A stretch of 56,907 bases of DNA, from contig CADBYS010000017.1 of the NCBI GenBank assembly GCA_902798965.1, positions 1 to 56,907 of the forward strand. Direction: 5' to 3'. The notes beneath the pieces were generated by a model. That model was not told the origin of the DNA and did no database searches. It worked only from the letters and a program-made list of their open reading frames with translations. Every line of letters begins with the position of its first letter. Position 1 is the stretch's first letter. The DNA comes from an uncultured Bacteroidales bacterium (lineage in GTDB: Bacteria > Bacteroidota > Bacteroidia > Bacteroidales > Paludibacteraceae). Below are positions 314 through 26,197 of the stretch, one piece after another. The translations under genes and the position numbers were made by a program.

Positions 314-802
314 ATGAAGTCATCAGAGATACAAGCATTGTTTTCGCAGTTTGAGGCAGCAGCCGGCAATGTGGAAGGAATAGAGTTGGAGTGCGCGCGA
401 GTTATGTTCGTTGCTGGGTTATACTCAGTGGCGTAACTTCGTCAATGTAATTGACAAAGCTCGTGAGGCGTGCCGCAACGCGCAGCAAAAGGAGTCCGAT
501 CATTTTGCTGACGTCAGCAAAACGATACCGATGCCCAAAGGCGCTGAAAAAGAGATAGATGACATCCTGTTGACGCGCTATGCTTGTTATCTTATTGCGC
601 AAAAGTCAACATACAAACGAAAGATTTGCATGGCACTGCGCGCATTGAAGATGAACATATTGAGAATAATGCAGCGGTGCGCAGTATGCTTATTCAACGT
701 GGCATTGTACCGGAAGATCTCCCGCCTGCAGAAGATATTAAGAAAGTTGAACGTCGCCTAAAATCCGAAGAAAAGAAAGCCATTAAAGGCCAAGAGATAT
801 AA
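314..802 (+). pseudogene. dinD: Decayed DNA-damage-inducible protein D (dinD)
   Basis: Fragments in different frames align in order with the DinD family. The ATG at 314 opens MKSSEIQALFSQFEAAAGN; the frame breaks near 382 and continues as WSARELCSLLGYTQW in the next frame. The sequence then runs through DDILLTRYACYLIAQ at about 600, where intact DinD has roughly 100 further residues that are absent here. It resumes in another frame with KDLHGTARIEDEHIENNAAV and ends with LPPAEDIKKVERRLKSEEKK at 802. There are thus at least two frame changes and one large internal deletion, and no full product can be made. The order and matching ends show this was one gene and not separate small genes. Confidence 0.85.
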
Positions 803-869: not shown

Positions 870-1094
870 AAAAAGCGTCTTACGCGCTTTGTTTTGGCTG
901 ATAGAATCTCGCAAATTCAAGGTAAATCCAAAACATTGCAGCAGAGATGCTCATGAGTGTGTATCAAATGTACACGTATATTTGCGTATATGGTACGAAT
1001 GCATACGGCGTGGGCTTCAATGTTGTTTGTTCGGATTTACAGGCAATGCGAGAGCCTCTATCAGCGGAACAGCAACATTGCAGTCCCGCTTTTT
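870..1094 (+). ncRNA. Putative structured RNA element, copy A
   Basis: This 225-nt stretch can fold into a long nested structure. The ends AAAAAGCG (870) and CGCTTTTT (1087) are complementary. Inside are perfect pairings 898-906 with 1057-1065 (9 bp), 907-913 with 1047-1053 (7 bp), 922-929 with 1033-1040 (8 bp) and 932-938 with 1018-1024 (7 bp). A short hairpin (AGCG/CGCT) follows the 5' end. The core holds AGATGCTCATGAGTGT (945-960) and ACGGCGTGGG (1005-1014). A second element at 25222-25460 has the same architecture and nearly the same core, although its helices differ in sequence. The strand is assigned from the terminal T run. The RNA class is not recognised. Confidence 0.55.
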
Positions 1095-1297: not shown

Positions 1298-3223
1298 ATG
1301 AAAAAACTATTCACCCTTTTCCTTGTGCTTGTAGCAAGCGTAGGAACAATGTTCGCCAGTACAAGGATCGGCGACCTGTATTACAACCTTAATGCAACGG
1401 GCAAAACCGCTGAGGTGACTTCGCAAAATAGCAGTTTTCCATATTGGTCAACAACTATTACAACAGCTAATATCCCTGCGTCTGTAACGTATAGTGGCAC
1501 AACCTATAGTGTCACAAGCATTGGAAATTATGCTTTCTCTCGTTGCAGCGGTTTGACCTCTGTGACAATTCCCAATAGCGTCACAAGCATTGGAAATTAT
1601 GCTTTCCAAAATTGCAGCAGTTTGGCCTCTATTGAGATTCCCAATAGCGTCACAAGCATTGGAGAGGGTGTTTTCGCTTATTGCAGCAGTTTGACGTCTG
1701 TGACAATCGGCAATAACGTTACAAGCATTGGATATGAGGCTTTCTATTATTGCAGCAGTTTGACGTCTGTGACAATCGGCAATAGCGTCACCAGCATTGG
1801 AGAATGGGCTTTCTATGGTTGCAGCAGTTTAACCTCTATTGAGATTCCCAATAGCGTCACAAGCATTGGAAGCTATGCTTTCTATTGTTGCAGCGGTTTG
1901 ACCTCTGTGACGATTCCCAATAGTGTCACAAGCATTGGATATGGAGCTTTCCAAAATTGCAGCAGTTTGACCTCTATTGAGATTCCCAATAGTGTCACAA
2001 GCATTGGAAATTATGCTTTCGCTGCTTGTAGCAGTTTACCTGTAACAGATAATTTACGTTATGCCGATACCTATTTAGTTGAGGCTGTTGACAAGACACT
2101 TTCCTCCTATACAATAAGGAATGGAACAAGATGGATTGGATATGGTGCTTTCTCAGATTGCAGCAGTTTGACCTCTGTGACGATTCCCAATAGCGTCACA
2201 AGCATTGGAGGTGGTGCTTTCTCTGGTTGCAGCAGTTTGACTTCTGTAACGATTCCGAGTAGCGTCACAAGCATAGGAAATTCTGCTTTCTCTGTATGCA
2301 GCAGTTTGACTTCTGTGACGATTCCTAATAGCGTCACAAACATTGGAAGTTGTGCTTTCTGTGGTTGCAGCAGTTTGAACTCTATAACGATTCCCAATAG
2401 CGTCACAAGCATTGGAGAAAATACTTTTGCGTATTGCCGCAGTTTGACCTCTGTGACGATTCCCAATAGCGTCACAAGCATTGGAAATGATGCTTTCTAT
2501 GGTTGCACTGGTTTGACCTCTGTGACGATTCCCAATAGCGTCACAAGCATTGGAGATAATGCTTTCTCTGGTTGCACCAGTTTGACCTCTATTGAGATTC
2601 CCAATAGCGTCACAAGCATTGGAAATTATGCTTTCCAAAATTGCAGCAGTTTGACCTCTGTAGAGATACCCAATAGTGTCACAAGCATTGGAAATTCTGC
2701 TTTCTCTGTATGCAGCAGTTTGACCTCTGTGACGATTCCCAATAGAGTCACCAGCATTGGAGAATGGGCTTTCTATGGTTGCAGCAGTTTAACCTCTATT
2801 GAGATTCCCAATAGCGTCACAAGCATTGGACGCTATGCTTTCTATTGTTGCAGCGGTTTGACCTCTGTGACTATCTCTAATAGTGTAACAAGCATTGAAG
2901 AGCAAGCTTTCTCCGGTTGTAGCAGTTTAACCTTTATTACTTGTGAAGCGGTTAATCCTCCTGTTCTGGAAAGCGAAGTATTTTGGGACGTGGATAAGTC
3001 TATTCCTCTATATGTTCCTGCAGAAAATATTTCTGCATATCAAAGTGCAATTGGTTGGAGTGATTTTTTTAATATTCTACCTATTTATAATGGCGATGCA
3101 ACCTCTGCTCCAGCAGTAGCAGTCAATCTCGCTAATCCCAAGCAAAAACTGATTCGTGAGGGGAATGTGTATATTCTCCACGATGGCAACACCTACACTG
3201 CCACAGGAACAAAAGTGGAGTAA
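1298..3223 (+). CDS. BspA-like leucine-rich repeat secreted protein
   Basis: This 641-residue protein starts with a signal peptide ([20 protein letters not shown]). It contains about 20 copies of a 23-residue repeat of the form [19 protein letters not shown], typical of the Treponema pallidum-type (BspA) leucine-rich repeats (LRR_5). The repeats span roughly residues 65-545; one irregular copy near residue 250 carries an insertion. In the family such proteins are exported and bind host or matrix ligands; the ligand here is unknown. The last 27 residues ([19 protein letters not shown] then KVE) match the C-terminal tails of the nucleases at 4874 and 6726 and the amylase at 42219, suggesting a shared sorting or anchoring signal. 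The start is fixed by the signal peptide. Confidence 0.9.
1508..2940 (+). repeat. Tandem 69-bp repeats coding for LRR units
   Basis: The coding repeats are also conserved at the DNA level: 69-bp units built around CAATAGCGTCACAAGCATTG recur about 20 times. A two-unit block near 1785-1905 is almost identical to the block near 2745-2865, and further pairs of units share long identical stretches. This indicates recent duplication or gene conversion, so unit number may vary between strains. Confidence 0.85.
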
Positions 3224-4733: not shown

Positions 4734-4760
4734 TAGGCTTTTTATGAGGAGTGCCAGACA

Positions 4761-4790
4761 GTCGAAAGTCAAAAGTCGAAAGTCGAAAGC
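4761..4790. repeat. Heptad repeat (GTCGAAA type), 30 nt
   Basis: Four 7-bp units (GTCGAAA, GTCAAAA, GTCGAAA, GTCGAAA) followed by GC, in the leader between the promoter and the endonuclease start. The same 30-nt string is found exactly at 10632 and 14411 inside coding sequence. Confidence 0.85.
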
Positions 4791-4873
4791 ATTTCTATGG
4801 GTTTTTATGGGGCAAAAATTACCCAAAATTATCCAGAAATATTGCAGAAAAGACAAAAATCAAATATAATAAC

Positions 4874-6667
4874 ATGCAAAAACATATAGTAAGTTTTGTG
4901 GCGCTGGTGGTGCTGGCGCAAGGAGTGTGGGCAGCAGCGGGGAATAATCCCGTGACCCCACCGGCAAACATACCCGCCTACTGGGCTTCAGCAGACGGGA
5001 AGTCAGGAAGTGCATTGTGGTCGGCAGTCAGTGCTGCCACCAACGTGGGATTCAGTTCGATCGGCTACGGCAGTTTGTACGATGCGTACAAGAAGACCGA
5101 TGTTTATCCGGCAGACTCGGTAGGCAAAGCCGGCAAAGTGTGGGATATGTACGGTGAGTGCGTATTTTCGTTCAGCAACACCTGCGGCAACTATAGCGGT
5201 GTATGCGACTGCTACAACCGCGAGCACTCGATACCGCAGAGTTGGTGGGGAGGCGGCACAAGCGGCATTGGCAACGATATATTCCACGTGCTCCCCACCG
5301 ACGGCAAGGTGAACGGCGTACGCAGCAACTATGAGTATGGCGTAGTGAACGGCGGCACGAACTGGGTAGGCAACAAGTACGGCTCGGCAAGCAGCTGGTC
5401 AACCGACCGCAAGACGATAGCCTCGACTGCCGGCGAATCGGTGAACGGCAGCGGCAATGTGTTTGAACCAAAACCGCAATACAAAGGCGATATAGCCCGC
5501 GGATTGTTGGGAACGATAATAAAATGGCAGCAGTCGAACATCACGACAGGCAACAACTTCTTTAGCGGGAATTATACCGCTACAGGATATTTTGGTCTGA
5601 CCAAGAAAGCTGTGGTACTGCTGATGAAATGGCACCGTGAAGACCCTGTGAGCCAGAAAGAGATCGACCGCAACAACGGTATACAGATCACTCAAGGCAA
5701 CCGCAACCCGTTCATTGACTACCCATATTTAGCGGAGTACATATGGGGCGAGCACGCCGGTGAGACCGTGGATATGAGCCAGTTGATGGCTTCTTGCGAT
5801 CCGGCGTTCGTTCCCGGCGTGAGCAGCGGTTGGCGCGGCGAGACGATCAATCCGCAGCCGGGCGAGCCCGTAGTGAAATACGGCGTGAACTGGTCGGTGA
5901 ACGGCGATATAGAGCGTACGGATTCCGTGACTGAGAACGGAAAAGTCAGCGCACTGCCCGCAACGCCGGTAAGCTGCTCGAGCGAGAGTAACGTGTTTGC
6001 AGGTTGGAGCGATATGCCTATCAGCGGCACGCAAGACGAAGCACCGGAAGTGCTCTACACCAAGGTCGGCGATATACCCGCTATCACGGAGGACATAACG
6101 CTGTATGCCGTGTTTGCGAAAGAAGAGACAGACGCCAACGGCGCAACACCGGCATCGTACGTCTTCGATGCCGAGCATCAGGAAGGTTGGACGAACACTG
6201 CCAGCTTGAAAGGCTCATACTGGTTGCTGAACTCCAACGGCGAACTGATCTCGCCGGAGATCAATCTGGCAGGGCTGGAGTCCATTGCGATGACTATGCG
6301 TACGTACGGAGGCTCAAGTTTCAATACGGTGACCATCCACGCCAACAACCAACAGATAGGTTCGCTACAAGCCAAGAGCAACTCACTGGCAGAGCAGACT
6401 TGGACGAACACGCAAAGCCTCACGGGCAATGCCGCTATTCACTTCAAGGCTAACTATCAGTCGAATGGCGTAGGCTTCTCGGCTGTGACCATCAATGCCA
6501 CCGGCAGCTCAACGACCTACAGCCGCTACATAACAAGCTGTCAGGGCACAACCGAAGTGATTGCGTTGCCCGCAGAGCAGGCTGCAAGGAAGATCATGGT
6601 TGGCGGAAGAATCTACATCCTGGTTGGTGAGCAGATGTACAATATGCAGGGGGAGAGGATTCGTTAG
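4874..6667 (+). CDS. Secreted endonuclease I family nuclease (first of two paralogues)
   Basis: The start at 4874 is chosen because it opens a signal peptide (MQKHIVSFVALVVLAQGVWA); an upstream in-frame ATG at 4751 would translate the promoter-proximal repeat. Residues about 45-300 match the Endonuclease_1 family, with the active-site region CYNREHSIPQSWW and the partner segment HVLPTDGKVNGVRSNYEYG. These enzymes are non-specific extracellular DNases. Residues about 320-420 (VKYGVNWSVNG to ITLYAVFA) resemble an InlB-type Listeria-Bacteroides repeat, followed by a predicted beta-rich region. The end (ARKIMVGGRIYILVGEQMYN) is the shared tail also seen in the BspA-like protein. A likely role is nucleic-acid scavenging outside the cell. 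A paralogue follows after a heptad repeat. Confidence 0.88.
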   Translation: MQKHIVSFVALVVLAQGVWAAAGNNPVTPPANIPAYWASADGKSGSALWSAVSAATNVGFSSIGYGSLYDAYKKTDVYPADSVGKAGKVWDMYGECVFSFSNTCGNYSGVCDCYNREHSIPQSWWGGGTSGIGNDIFHVLPTDGKVNGVRSNYEYGVVNGGTNWVGNKYGSASSWSTDRKTIASTAGESVNGSGNVFEPKPQYKGDIARGLLGTIIKWQQSNITTGNNFFSGNYTATGYFGLTKKAVVLLMKWHREDPVSQKEIDRNNGIQITQGNRNPFIDYPYLAEYIWGEHAGETVDMSQLMASCDPAFVPGVSSGWRGETINPQPGEPVVKYGVNWSVNGDIERTDSVTENGKVSALPATPVSCSSESNVFAGWSDMPISGTQDEAPEVLYTKVGDIPAITEDITLYAVFAKEETDANGATPASYVFDAEHQEGWTNTASLKGSYWLLNSNGELISPEINLAGLESIAMTMRTYGGSSFNTVTIHANNQQIGSLQAKSNSLAEQTWTNTQSLTGNAAIHFKANYQSNGVGFSAVTINATGSSTTYSRYITSCQGTTEVIALPAEQAARKIMVGGRIYILVGEQMYNMQGERIR

Positions 6668-24751: not shown

Positions 24752-24783
24752 TTTGCAAATGTCATTTTTTTTTCGTACCTTTG
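24752..24783 (+). promoter_or_regulatory. Promoter for the antitoxin-like/zeta toxin remnant
   Basis: TTTG (24752-24755), 20 bases, TACCTTTG (24776-24783), again with ATTTGCAAATGTCA. It is divergent from the lipoprotein promoter, with about 80 bases between the two -33 elements. Confidence 0.78.
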
Positions 24784-24837: not shown

Positions 24838-24993
24838 ATGGACGACTATCGTTTTATAGATATTGACCACGAGCCGACTGATGAACAGTTGGCACAACTC
24901 ATGCATGAGGTTGCTGTGGAAGCCAAAGAACGGCACGATAAGGCACATGCTGCCTATTTTGCGCATATAAGACAAATGGCACACGCTATATGA
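24838..24993 (+). CDS. Small acidic protein upstream of a zeta-toxin remnant, putative antitoxin
   Basis: This 51-residue ORF (MDDYRFIDIDHEPTDEQLAQ onward) is helical and charged, with His/Glu-rich spacing. It overlaps the next frame by the ATGA arrangement at 24990, typical of translational coupling in toxin-antitoxin pairs. Its place directly before a zeta-toxin-like P-loop ORF suggests an antitoxin or accessory role; no named family can be assigned from sequence alone. It has a clear promoter at 24752 and looks intact, while its partner is broken. Confidence 0.6.
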   Translation: MDDYRFIDIDHEPTDEQLAQLMHEVAVEAKERHDKAHAAYFAHIRQMAHAI

Positions 24994-25153
24994 GAAAACC
25001 TGTTCTGATAGTAATCTGCGGCCCGAATGGTTCAGGCAAGACTTCGACTACTCGTTTGGTTATCAAGCATGCCTGGGCGGAACAATGTTTGCCAAGAAAT
25101 ATGTCGAATCATTCCCACAATGGACTGAAACGATACTAGAAGCAGTTCAATAA
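24990..25153 (+). pseudogene. Truncated zeta-toxin family P-loop kinase
   Basis: The frame from 24990 gives MRKPVLIVICGPNGSGKTST, a Walker A motif in the context of zeta-toxin-like kinases, then RLVIKHAWAE. Here intact members have a long central region that is missing. The frame shifts and a different frame gives KKYVESFPQWTETILEAVQ with a stop at 25153, resembling a C-terminus of this kind of protein. I read this as an internally deleted gene of which about 50 residues remain. Zeta toxins phosphorylate UDP-GlcNAc in known cases. The remnant cannot be active. Confidence 0.6.
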
Positions 25154-25221
25154 TTCGTCGCTTGCCGACGCTAACAGCAATATAGCTGACCTCAGCAGCA
25201 TAAAAAAGTGAGGACATAATG

Positions 25222-25460
25222 AAAAAGCGTTTACACGCTTGTAATCTGATTTCTCGAAATGTAGGAAGTTGAGAGATTAGTTATTCAGAAAGCAAGTTAG
25301 TAGATGCTCACGAGTGTACAACTCGCCCACACTAATGGATTGCCATATCCTTTAGTGTGTTGGCGGATATATACACGGCGCGAGTAACTATTGTTTCTGA
25401 TAACTAAGGCATTTCCTACAGCCTCGAGAAACGGATAACAATCAGTTATTCGCGTTTTTT
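25222..25460 (+). ncRNA. Putative structured RNA element, copy B
   Basis: This 239-nt stretch has the same plan as copy A at 870: A-rich start AAAAAGCG with a hairpin GCGTTTACACGC, and complementary end CGCGTTTTTT (25451-25460). Nested perfect helices are 25250-25257 with 25424-25431 (8 bp), 25260-25267 with 25413-25420 (8 bp), 25277-25283 with 25401-25407 (7 bp) and 25285-25291 with 25394-25400 (7 bp). The core has AGATGCTCACGAGTGT (25302-25317), 15 of 16 bases identical to copy A, and ACGGCGCGAG (25375-25384). An internal hairpin CACACTAA/TTAGTGTG is specific to this copy. The flank GACATAAT is also shared. RNA class not recognised. Confidence 0.58.
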
Positions 25461-25468
25461 GTATTTAC

Positions 25469-26197
25469 ATGTTTATGAAAAACAAAGTTATTTTTTTGTT
25501 AGTTATTTTAAATGTGCTGTTATTTGCTACAGTAACATATTTGGCAATTCACACTGGGTACATTAAAAGGAATTTTATTCGATTAGGAATAATATCGCCG
25601 CCACAAGATAGTGTACTTCCTATGGATTATTGGTGTATTCAAGGCTGGACAAATACTTTAGAGAAACTCAATATACAAGCTGATATTGTGTTCTTCGGCA
25701 ATTCCATAACATGTGGTAGTTCCTTCCATGATTATTTTCCAGACAAGAAAATAATCAATTTAGGGTACCCTGGCGACAATATCAAAGGAATGCTATATAG
25801 AATAGACATGCTTAAAGCTGTAAAGCCACATAAATGTTTTATTATGGCAGGTATTAATGATTCATGGCGACCAAAAGAAGAGATTATAACACAATATAGG
25901 GATCTAATAATCCAATTAAAATATGAAATGCCAAAAGTTCAATTTTACATTGAAAGTATTCTCCCTGTTAATAGTTGTCGTTTCGAAAATTATTGCAATA
26001 ACACAAAAATAGCAGAAATAAATATAGAGTTAGCAAGAATAGCCACAGAATTTGATTGTCCTTACATTGATTTATATACTTTATACATAGACGAGTTTAG
26101 TGAGCTTCCCATGTCGCTTTCTCCAGACGGGGTCCACTTGTTCCATGATAGTTATGATAGATGGGCGGATATTATCCGACCATATATTTATCAATAA
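25469..26197 (+). CDS. SGNH/GDSL-family hydrolase with N-terminal membrane anchor
   Basis: The 242-residue protein starts with a hydrophobic segment (VIFLLVILNVLLFATVTYLA) that acts as anchor or uncleaved signal. The SGNH blocks are visible: block I FFGNSITCG (the GDS Ser), block II LGYPGDN (Gly), block III AGINDSW (Asn) and block V SPDGVHLF (Asp and His). The family hydrolyses ester bonds, often acetyl groups on sugars or lipids; the substrate is not evident. The codon use is A/T-rich (many AAA, TTA, ATA codons), in clear contrast with the surrounding genes, which suggests recent transfer. It follows the structured element directly by 8 bases and is closed by a strong terminator. Confidence 0.85.
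   Translation: MFMKNKVIFLLVILNVLLFATVTYLAIHTGYIKRNFIRLGIISPPQDSVLPMDYWCIQGWTNTLEKLNIQADIVFFGNSITCGSSFHDYFPDKKIINLGYPGDNIKGMLYRIDMLKAVKPHKCFIMAGINDSWRPKEEIITQYRDLIIQLKYEMPKVQFYIESILPVNSCRFENYCNNTKIAEINIELARIATEFDCPYIDLYTLYIDEFSELPMSLSPDGVHLFHDSYDRWADIIRPYIYQ

Follow-up and report, generated by a model that had tools for sequence, protein, structure and literature searches.

Transcription-terminating riboswitches, such as preQ1-I and SAM-I, are 5' leaders that combine a pseudoknot near the expression platform with mutually exclusive pairings and a U-run ahead of the gene. The eps-associated RNA (EAR), which works with LoaP, and the capsule leaders controlled by UpxY also act on termination, in these cases within polysaccharide operons. 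The omega RNAs of the HEARO or IscB type fall into a size class comparable to that of the RNA described here, and contain pseudoknots as well. Our RNA is found in the Bacteroidales, which figure prominently among the gut bacteria of humans and ruminants. Among the structured RNAs of Bacteroidetes, a published survey names Bacteroidales-1, Bacteroides-1, Bacteroid-trp, and 6S-flavo, and its table gives no Rfam number for Bacteroides-2, which hence lay outside our comparison with Rfam (PMC2864571).

The analyzed window, which is the whole DNA stretch of 56,907 nucleotides, contains two copies of one structured RNA on the forward strand, and their boundaries had been placed correctly in an earlier note. 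Both copies fold more stably than their dinucleotide shuffles (z-scores in Table 1), none of 200 shuffles being equal to either copy. The core AGATGCTCAYGAGTGT matches the window twice at no more than two mismatches; two matches were seen in one of 100 shuffled sequences. The shared end signals AAAAAGCG...CGC(G)TTTTT, to which the note had drawn attention, are present as well, though they do not chiefly make up one closing helix but rather a 5' hairpin and a 3' strand with the U-run. A long end-to-end closing helix was rejected as the main feature at z-scores of only -1.9 (91 copies) and -3.9 (17 copies from the order search). In our assessment, the element is almost certainly a functional RNA and, with high probability, a cis-acting leader, while from its sequence we lean somewhat towards transcription attenuation by exclusive helices in the manner of a riboswitch.

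The zeta-toxin-like gene remnant upstream of copy 2 was assigned by a weak Pfam match (E 0.0019, below the cut-off) that stands beside matches to other P-loop families. Elsewhere in the window, positions 4751-6667 encode a 638-aa protein with an Endonuclease I domain (PF04231). In many copies (e.g. loci L073, L009, and L020), the stretch from the end of the preceding gene to the RNA contains, as judged by eye, one or two possible H-type pseudoknots whose loops are A-rich and whose stem letters change from copy to copy; two are seen before copy 2 (Table 1), and the same reading applies just 5' of copy 1 (828-857). Between the RNA and the start codon, a short leader GGAGTAAGCCGAAAATCCGATGAAGAGTAGGC and its variants recur in loci L018, L007, L077, L078, and others, where it may form an H-type pseudoknot or a hairpin and may represent a second small leader element.

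The earlier note had proposed a covariance-model search of related Bacteroidales genomes, and such a search revealed many copies of the RNA. A genus-sample screen with a pattern of the core plus ACGGCG matched 15 of 151 genomes, the window's own counted. The covariance model R1, built from 20 aligned copies, matched 205 of 300 genomes and 23 of 33 genera in the sample of the host's family, as well as 60 of 295 genomes and 41 of 183 genera in the order sample, where 56 of the 60 genomes belong to non-host families. The phylum sample served as a specificity control (the genomes listed are of the same class and another order; 176 are unlisted), and there R1 matched one of 197 genomes apart from that of the window. 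This single match (L196) comes from outside the order but from the same class, has the core motifs, and is a possible case of transfer. The named records with the RNA are mostly rumen Bacteroidales or Paludibacteraceae assemblies (53 stretches); two are labeled Prevotella, and one of the 53 is labeled Lachnospiraceae, perhaps by mis-binning.

Copy numbers from the family and order samples, in which up to seven candidates per genome were scored, are lower bounds. Fuller scoring of the window's genome gave 13 sense R1 matches at E <1e-4 and a truncated copy (E 0.0165) that was accepted by eye, with two antisense echoes and one row at E 0.148 excluded. In ten other genomes, we found 2 to 16 matches each, or 2 to 15 once antisense echoes of copies already counted are discounted (three in G091 and one in G114), so that the eleven genomes counted have 2 to 15 sense copies per genome. 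The main domain occurs in a long form of about 210-300 nt and a short form of about 155-180 nt that lacks the apical domain; the prevalence of the latter is a lower bound, as it has no calibrated covariance model of its own. One locus (L079:1-3123) carries two copies at a distance of about 1.1 kb, one of them truncated and the other of the short form; YoeB-like and DUF3990-like genes surround them, and the next gene after the two copies resembles an LRR protein.

The comparison with Rfam release 15 (4227 families) gave no match above the gathering cut-off in the window and 20 relatives, while permissive searches with the element and six relatives returned only chance-level rows on the RNA. A sub-threshold match to the TPP riboswitch (36.9 bits against a cut-off of 54.3) was recorded at L189:1924-2018, a locus in which a copy of the RNA is also present. 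Within the scope of Rfam 15, the suggestion of another unlisted class is supported. No description of this RNA was found in the literature, including the available text of PMC2864571, PMC7366714, and PMC8040213, although it may correspond to an unnamed published candidate.

From 5' to 3', the main domain consists of the P1 hairpin; the 5' strands of P1b, P2, P3, and P4; the 3' strand of P1b; C5; the apical hairpin; C3; M; the 3' strand of P4; the GGY/RCC hairpin; the 3' strand of P2; T; T'; and the U-run (Table 1). P1b and M.T are pseudoknots, since both cross P2-P4. The 5' strand of P3 sits in the loop of a possible small hairpin, and P3 seems to join two hairpin loops.

Table 1. Coordinates of the two RNA copies, of the structural parts of copy 2, and of the neighboring features in the window.
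Feature	Positions	Strand	Basis
RNA copy 1, main domain, 225 nt	870..1094	+	CM score 141.2 bits; fold z -6.54 (870-1097)
Copy 1 C3	1007..1022	+	
Copy 1 T'	1076..1089	+	U-run 1090-1094 directly after
BRO-N domain ORF, 5' of copy 1, possibly a remnant	411..761	+	PF02498, E 1.8e-6
Gene of a BspA-type leucine-rich-repeat (LRR) protein, 203 nt 3' of copy 1	1298..3223	+	PF13306, E 2.3e-173
Motif TTTG-N-TAnnTTTG, which we take to be a Bacteroidetes-type promoter, 5' of the genes running into copy 2	24752..24783	+	Pattern match
Small ORF and zeta-toxin-like gene remnant, between the promoter motif and copy 2	24838..25150	+	Reading frame broken
Upstream H-type pseudoknot 1 of copy 2 (CGTCG..CGACG, loop TTGC with GCAA)	25156..25180	+	By eye
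Upstream H-type pseudoknot 2 of copy 2 (GCTG..CAGC, loop CCTCA with TGAGG)	25185..25213	+	By eye
RNA copy 2, main domain, 239 nt	25222..25460	+	Fold z -8.53; CM score 252.9 bits
P1, 5' hairpin	25224..25241	+	20-sequence alignment
P1b 5' strand, partner 25285-25296, crosses P2-P4	25238..25249	+	Own-partner z -8.3, -9.9
P2 5' strand, partner 25424-25431	25250..25257	+	Covarying pairs
P3 5' strand, partner TTCCTAC inside hairpin 25408-25423	25260..25267	+	z -14.9
P4 5' strand, partner 25400-25407	25277..25284	+	z -22.2, -18.1
C5, conserved core 5' strand	25295..25312	+	C5 region x C3 region, z -9.9
Variable apical hairpin	25324..25365	+	Covarying pairs
C3, conserved core 3' strand, partner C5 or T'	25377..25390	+	Swap and duplex-energy tests
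M, partner T (pseudoknot)	25388..25399	+	z -9.9
GGY/RCC hairpin, candidate 3-pair stem, loop contains the P3 3' strand	25408..25423	+	Seen in listed sequences; P3 swap test
T, partner M or T'	25432..25441	+	At least 3 shared bases in 53/57 copies
T', partner T (local hairpin) or C3	25444..25454	+	Duplex-energy tests
U-run, intrinsic-terminator-like 3' end	25455..25460	+	Terminator-like site 25432-25452 plus U-run
GDSL lipase/acylhydrolase gene, 8 nt 3' of the copy 2 U-run	25469..26197	+	

The covarying long-range helices of the earlier note are real: among 74 non-redundant relatives (13 near-duplicates of 87 were dropped), the six P2 pairs are preserved in every sequence (100%) that has letters at both positions, and each pair shows three to four pair types. 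MAFFT and RNAalifold alone missed P1b, P4, M.T, and C3.T' because of crossing helices or misalignment. Misaligned helices were tested by duplex energy, in which the duplexes of a copy's own segments were set against those formed with segments swapped in from other copies. In the 74 copies, the own-versus-swapped z-scores were -14.9 for P3, -22.2 for P4, -8.3 for P1b, -8.1 for M.T, and -9.6 for T.T'. Eight of nine pairings that are not part of the model ranged between -2.7 and +3.2, and the ninth, the 5' strand of P1b with T, reached -5.6 (and again -4.6 in 57 copies), so that kinship alone can give such values and the swap test is inflated.

The test was repeated with separate segments in a set of 57 copies. 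The order search contributed 17 of them, including L178 and L180, which belong to other genera of the host's family. The z-scores were -6.7 for the C3 region with T' (-10.5 own versus -8.9 swapped kcal/mol), -9.9 for C5 with the C3 region, -9.9 for the M region with T, -9.5 for T with T', and -18.1 for P4, while ten control pairings ranged from -1.3 to +2.4. In a diverse subset of 24 copies, the respective values were -4.1, -8.0, -6.8, -5.9, and -11.0. The C3.T' pairing had first surfaced from an intended control (the region before P3' against T2, in overlapping windows, z -9.8), and the separate segments are its retest. Taken together, the R1 searches and the covariation tests bear out the claim of a functional RNA, about 230 nt long, whose stems covary and which has many more copies.

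The mismatches reveal which nucleic acid and which strand are folded. Over 33 pairs of four helices in 57 sequences, we counted 126 G.U and 16 A.C appositions, as well as 78 other mismatches; by helix, the G.U and A.C numbers were 41 and 1 in P1, 26 and 1 in P2, 1 and 0 in P3, and 58 and 14 in the apical hairpin. The element thus acts as an RNA of this strand, as the bias would be unexpected for the other strand or for DNA. It also speaks against a recombination site or cassette boundary at the DNA level, similar to an integron attC site, that marks the insertion of cargo, a reading that we consider very improbable. Such a site would account for the copies located between mobile-element genes (Mob_Pre in four of six candidates and terminase in one of one) or KilA-N, BRO, and toxin-type genes and cargo, and for the same RNA having differing neighbors among the matches listed. 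Yet it does not call for crossing helices or a promoter motif of its own, and some copies stand behind genes that by eye look like housekeeping ones (L180, L181, and L204).

The position of the RNA relative to genes was analyzed in three sets of loci: a family-level set of 89 loci, 84 of them with a called ORF; an order-level set of 36 loci from the order search, including L178 and L180 and with L190 dropped as a repeat of L189; and seven plasmid or phage loci. The RNA and the first ORF downstream of it share their strand in 78 of 84, 35 of 36, and 7 of 7 loci, respectively (120 of 127 in total), which places the RNA, like a riboswitch, as the structured leader of a same-strand gene. The lone order-level exception varies with the ORF caller (L194 or L199). 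The same orientation was found in all 11 viral-collection contigs, several of which are redundant. The distance from the RNA end to the start codon is at most 30 nt in 28 of 78, 3 of 35, and 2 of 7 same-strand loci, leaving no space there for a promoter outside the RNA. The -7 motif TAnnTTTG is present 25-130 nt upstream of 43 of 89 family-level, 27 of 36 order-level, and 7 of 7 plasmid or phage copies, compared to 37 of 384 control windows.

A stand-alone small RNA, transcribed from its own promoter to its own terminator and merely located near genes, would fit the many copies that have both the promoter motif and a U-run end, as well as the terminator-like site at copy 2. We find it improbable in view of the same-strand bias in all three sets and of the start codons that directly follow some U-runs. 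The leader reading has exceptions of its own, which run counter to the attenuator as well: 6 of the 84 family-level copies have their first ORF on the opposite strand, 46 of 89 lack a near promoter motif, and in one locus (L080) a promoter-like motif lies between the RNA and the gene.

The functions of adjacent genes were assigned for 69 downstream proteins of the family-level set, leaving out 15 of 84 (six on the opposite strand and nine near-repeats or very short). Among the 25 most frequent of 65 Pfam-type families are Glycos_transf_2 (8), LRR_5 of the BspA type (6), Glycos_transf_1 (4), GtrA (3), Caps_synth (3), sulfatase (2), and MBOAT (2). The theme of the downstream genes is cell surface and export, and it spreads beyond one metabolic pathway. 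By a crude N-terminal test, 20 of 35 downstream proteins versus 2 of 45 upstream ORFs are of the exported type at the order level, and 24 of 78 versus 20 of 181 in the host's family. Upstream, 48 of 88 ORFs were scanned, and the 25 most frequent of 58 families include Bro-N (4), KilA-N (3), DUF1016 (3), RhuM (3), DUF2442 (3), Fic (2), YoeB (1), and AbiEii (1), the rest including metabolic or repair genes. Among the matches listed, homology blocks often begin about 95 nt upstream of the RNA and break off at its end, and in some pairs of loci the downstream gene is shared as well.

The many glycosyltransferase and capsule-type genes downstream, along with a conserved core that carries a variable apical hairpin, would also suit a leader that, like EAR with LoaP or the UpxY-controlled capsule leaders, is bound by a protein or acts in processive antitermination, where a recruited factor carries the polymerase past terminators and no small-molecule ligand is involved. 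We regard this as unlikely, since many targets encode exported and LRR proteins, and the conserved exclusive pairings at the 3' end would be needless for a recruiter.

Relatives of the RNA also occur on mobile DNA. Relatives of the short form were identified in seven records, namely plasmids of Parabacteroides distasonis (two), Phocaeicola massiliensis (two), Bacteroides finegoldii, and B. uniformis (pBUN1), as well as a Prevotella sp. oral taxon 299 record of 1.77 Mb. Further relatives are in one phage record and in 11 viral-collection contigs, in nine of which the RNA starts about 85-130 nt past the preceding gene. Among seven preceding genes tested, four encode Mob_Pre relaxases (L220, L211, L227, and L235) and one a phage terminase large subunit (L229); the assignment of those of L217 and L228 as relaxases was rejected, as neither matches any entry of Pfam, PHROGs, or NCBIfam. 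The copy on pBUN1 is flanked by mobV and a class A beta-lactamase gene. The link of the RNA to mobile DNA is that of a leader to its cargo genes, seen on some plasmids, mobilizable elements, and prophage-like contigs. Six loci (L205, L211, L212, L213, L217, and L218) have near-alike short-form RNAs in genomes of different families and on plasmids, and this similarity suggests horizontal transfer.

Multiple structured copies, some on mobile elements, are also what one would see for a guide RNA of the IscB/HEARO type, which the earlier note had considered, or for an RNA associated with a reverse transcriptase (retron, group II, or DGR). This origin appears extremely improbable. Neither the window nor the 20 relatives have a match at gathering score in Rfam, to HEARO or any other family, and no IscB-type nuclease is among the neighboring families shown (the 25 most frequent of 65 downstream and of 58 upstream). 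The constant partner is instead the same-strand downstream gene. RVT_1 was detected in none of 12 RNA-rich genomes, against 3 of 14 with the positive control, while the search for RRXRR (IscB) was negative in the same number of RNA-rich genomes with its control likewise silent.

The attenuator reading rests on the 3' part of the RNA, where the same letters have alternative partners. T can pair either with M (mean -13.1 kcal/mol) or locally with T' (mean -7.7), and the two pairings share at least three T bases in 53 of 57 copies, a set with only three short forms. T' in turn can pair with the C3-M window at a mean of -17.3 kcal/mol, against -9.6 with the letters of T' shuffled; the pairing has at least eight pairs in 56 of 57 copies, stops no more than 1 nt from the U-run in as many, and shares at least four bases with the C5-side pairing of the C3-M window in all 57. 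The length and the position hold jointly in 55 of 57 copies but also in 45% of shuffled T', because the windows are short and wobbles are counted; the helix counts are thus uninformative, and the claim is based on the energies and swap tests. These potential pairings and their covariation include the expression platform, as in a riboswitch, and they indicate that T' imitates C5, which is the predicted anatomy of a strand-exchange attenuator.

A terminator scan found a site at the end of copy 2 (Table 1) and none at the RNA end of copy 1, where the local hairpin has mismatches and T' can form 14 pairs with C3. A U-run of at least four is present in 87 of 89 family-level and 32 of 36 order-level copies, but in only 2 of 7 plasmid or phage copies. 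In loci L210, L212, L215, L217, L223, and L235, the 3' end CCACGCTTCGTG(G) or a similar one replaces the U-run, and such ends can form a small hairpin unlike that of T'.

We propose that the RNA forms the cis-acting 5' untranslated region of genes that often encode surface or exported proteins, and that its transcription starts at a promoter of its own about 60 nt upstream or at that of the preceding gene. The transcript adopts a compact fold with the nested helices P2-P4, the core P5 (C5.C3), the pseudoknots P1b and M.T, and the loop-loop helix P3. As long as C5.C3 and M.T were kept, T' would be free and the polymerase would continue into the gene. If T' displaced C5 and paired with C3, or T paired with T', or both, a stable helix would arise beside the U-run and transcription would stop ahead of the start codon. 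A putative effector, either a small molecule or a protein, would tip the balance between these pairings. The analysis demonstrates the family, its structure and strand, its position in cis, and the conservation of the exclusive pairings, and we infer termination at the 3' end in cells, the direction of the switch, and the existence of the effector. With a mean of -34.6 kcal/mol for the whole arm, C5.C3 may be too stable for displacement by T'.

More tentatively, the family might constitute a new class of RNA switches, absent from Rfam and present across the Bacteroidales, that gates envelope genes, many of them horizontally acquired, and so places acquired surface functions under one signal. 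One conserved pseudoknotted sensor would then stand, in a share of the cases, between the backbone or stability genes of mobile elements and their surface or exported cargo. Our understanding of how Bacteroidales regulate their surface polysaccharides, surface proteins, and mobile cargo is incomplete. A shared leader whose switch anatomy can be tested would suggest that many surface genes respond to a single common signal. Such a leader would also add a large RNA class to the few regulatory RNAs known from the phylum. The leader also precedes cargo on plasmids and prophage-like contigs, some from human gut species and one with a beta-lactamase gene.

Compared to the known systems, the RNA matched none of Bacteroidales-1, Bacteroides-1, Bacteroid-trp, and 6S-flavo, either at gathering score or in permissive searches. 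It resembles the HEARO/IscB omega RNAs in size class, in pseudoknots, and in the presence of some copies on mobile DNA; unlike them, it has no Rfam match and no nuclease partner was seen, and it is the leader of a gene. As with EAR/LoaP and the UpxY-controlled leaders, it precedes polysaccharide genes and may affect termination, whereas many of its targets are non-polysaccharide genes. The preQ1-I and SAM-I riboswitches have no Rfam relationship with this RNA but share with it the 5' leader position, a pseudoknot near the 3' platform, exclusive pairings, and a U-run before the gene. In contrast to both, the RNA is larger, has more crossing helices, and is found in many copies per genome before unrelated genes.
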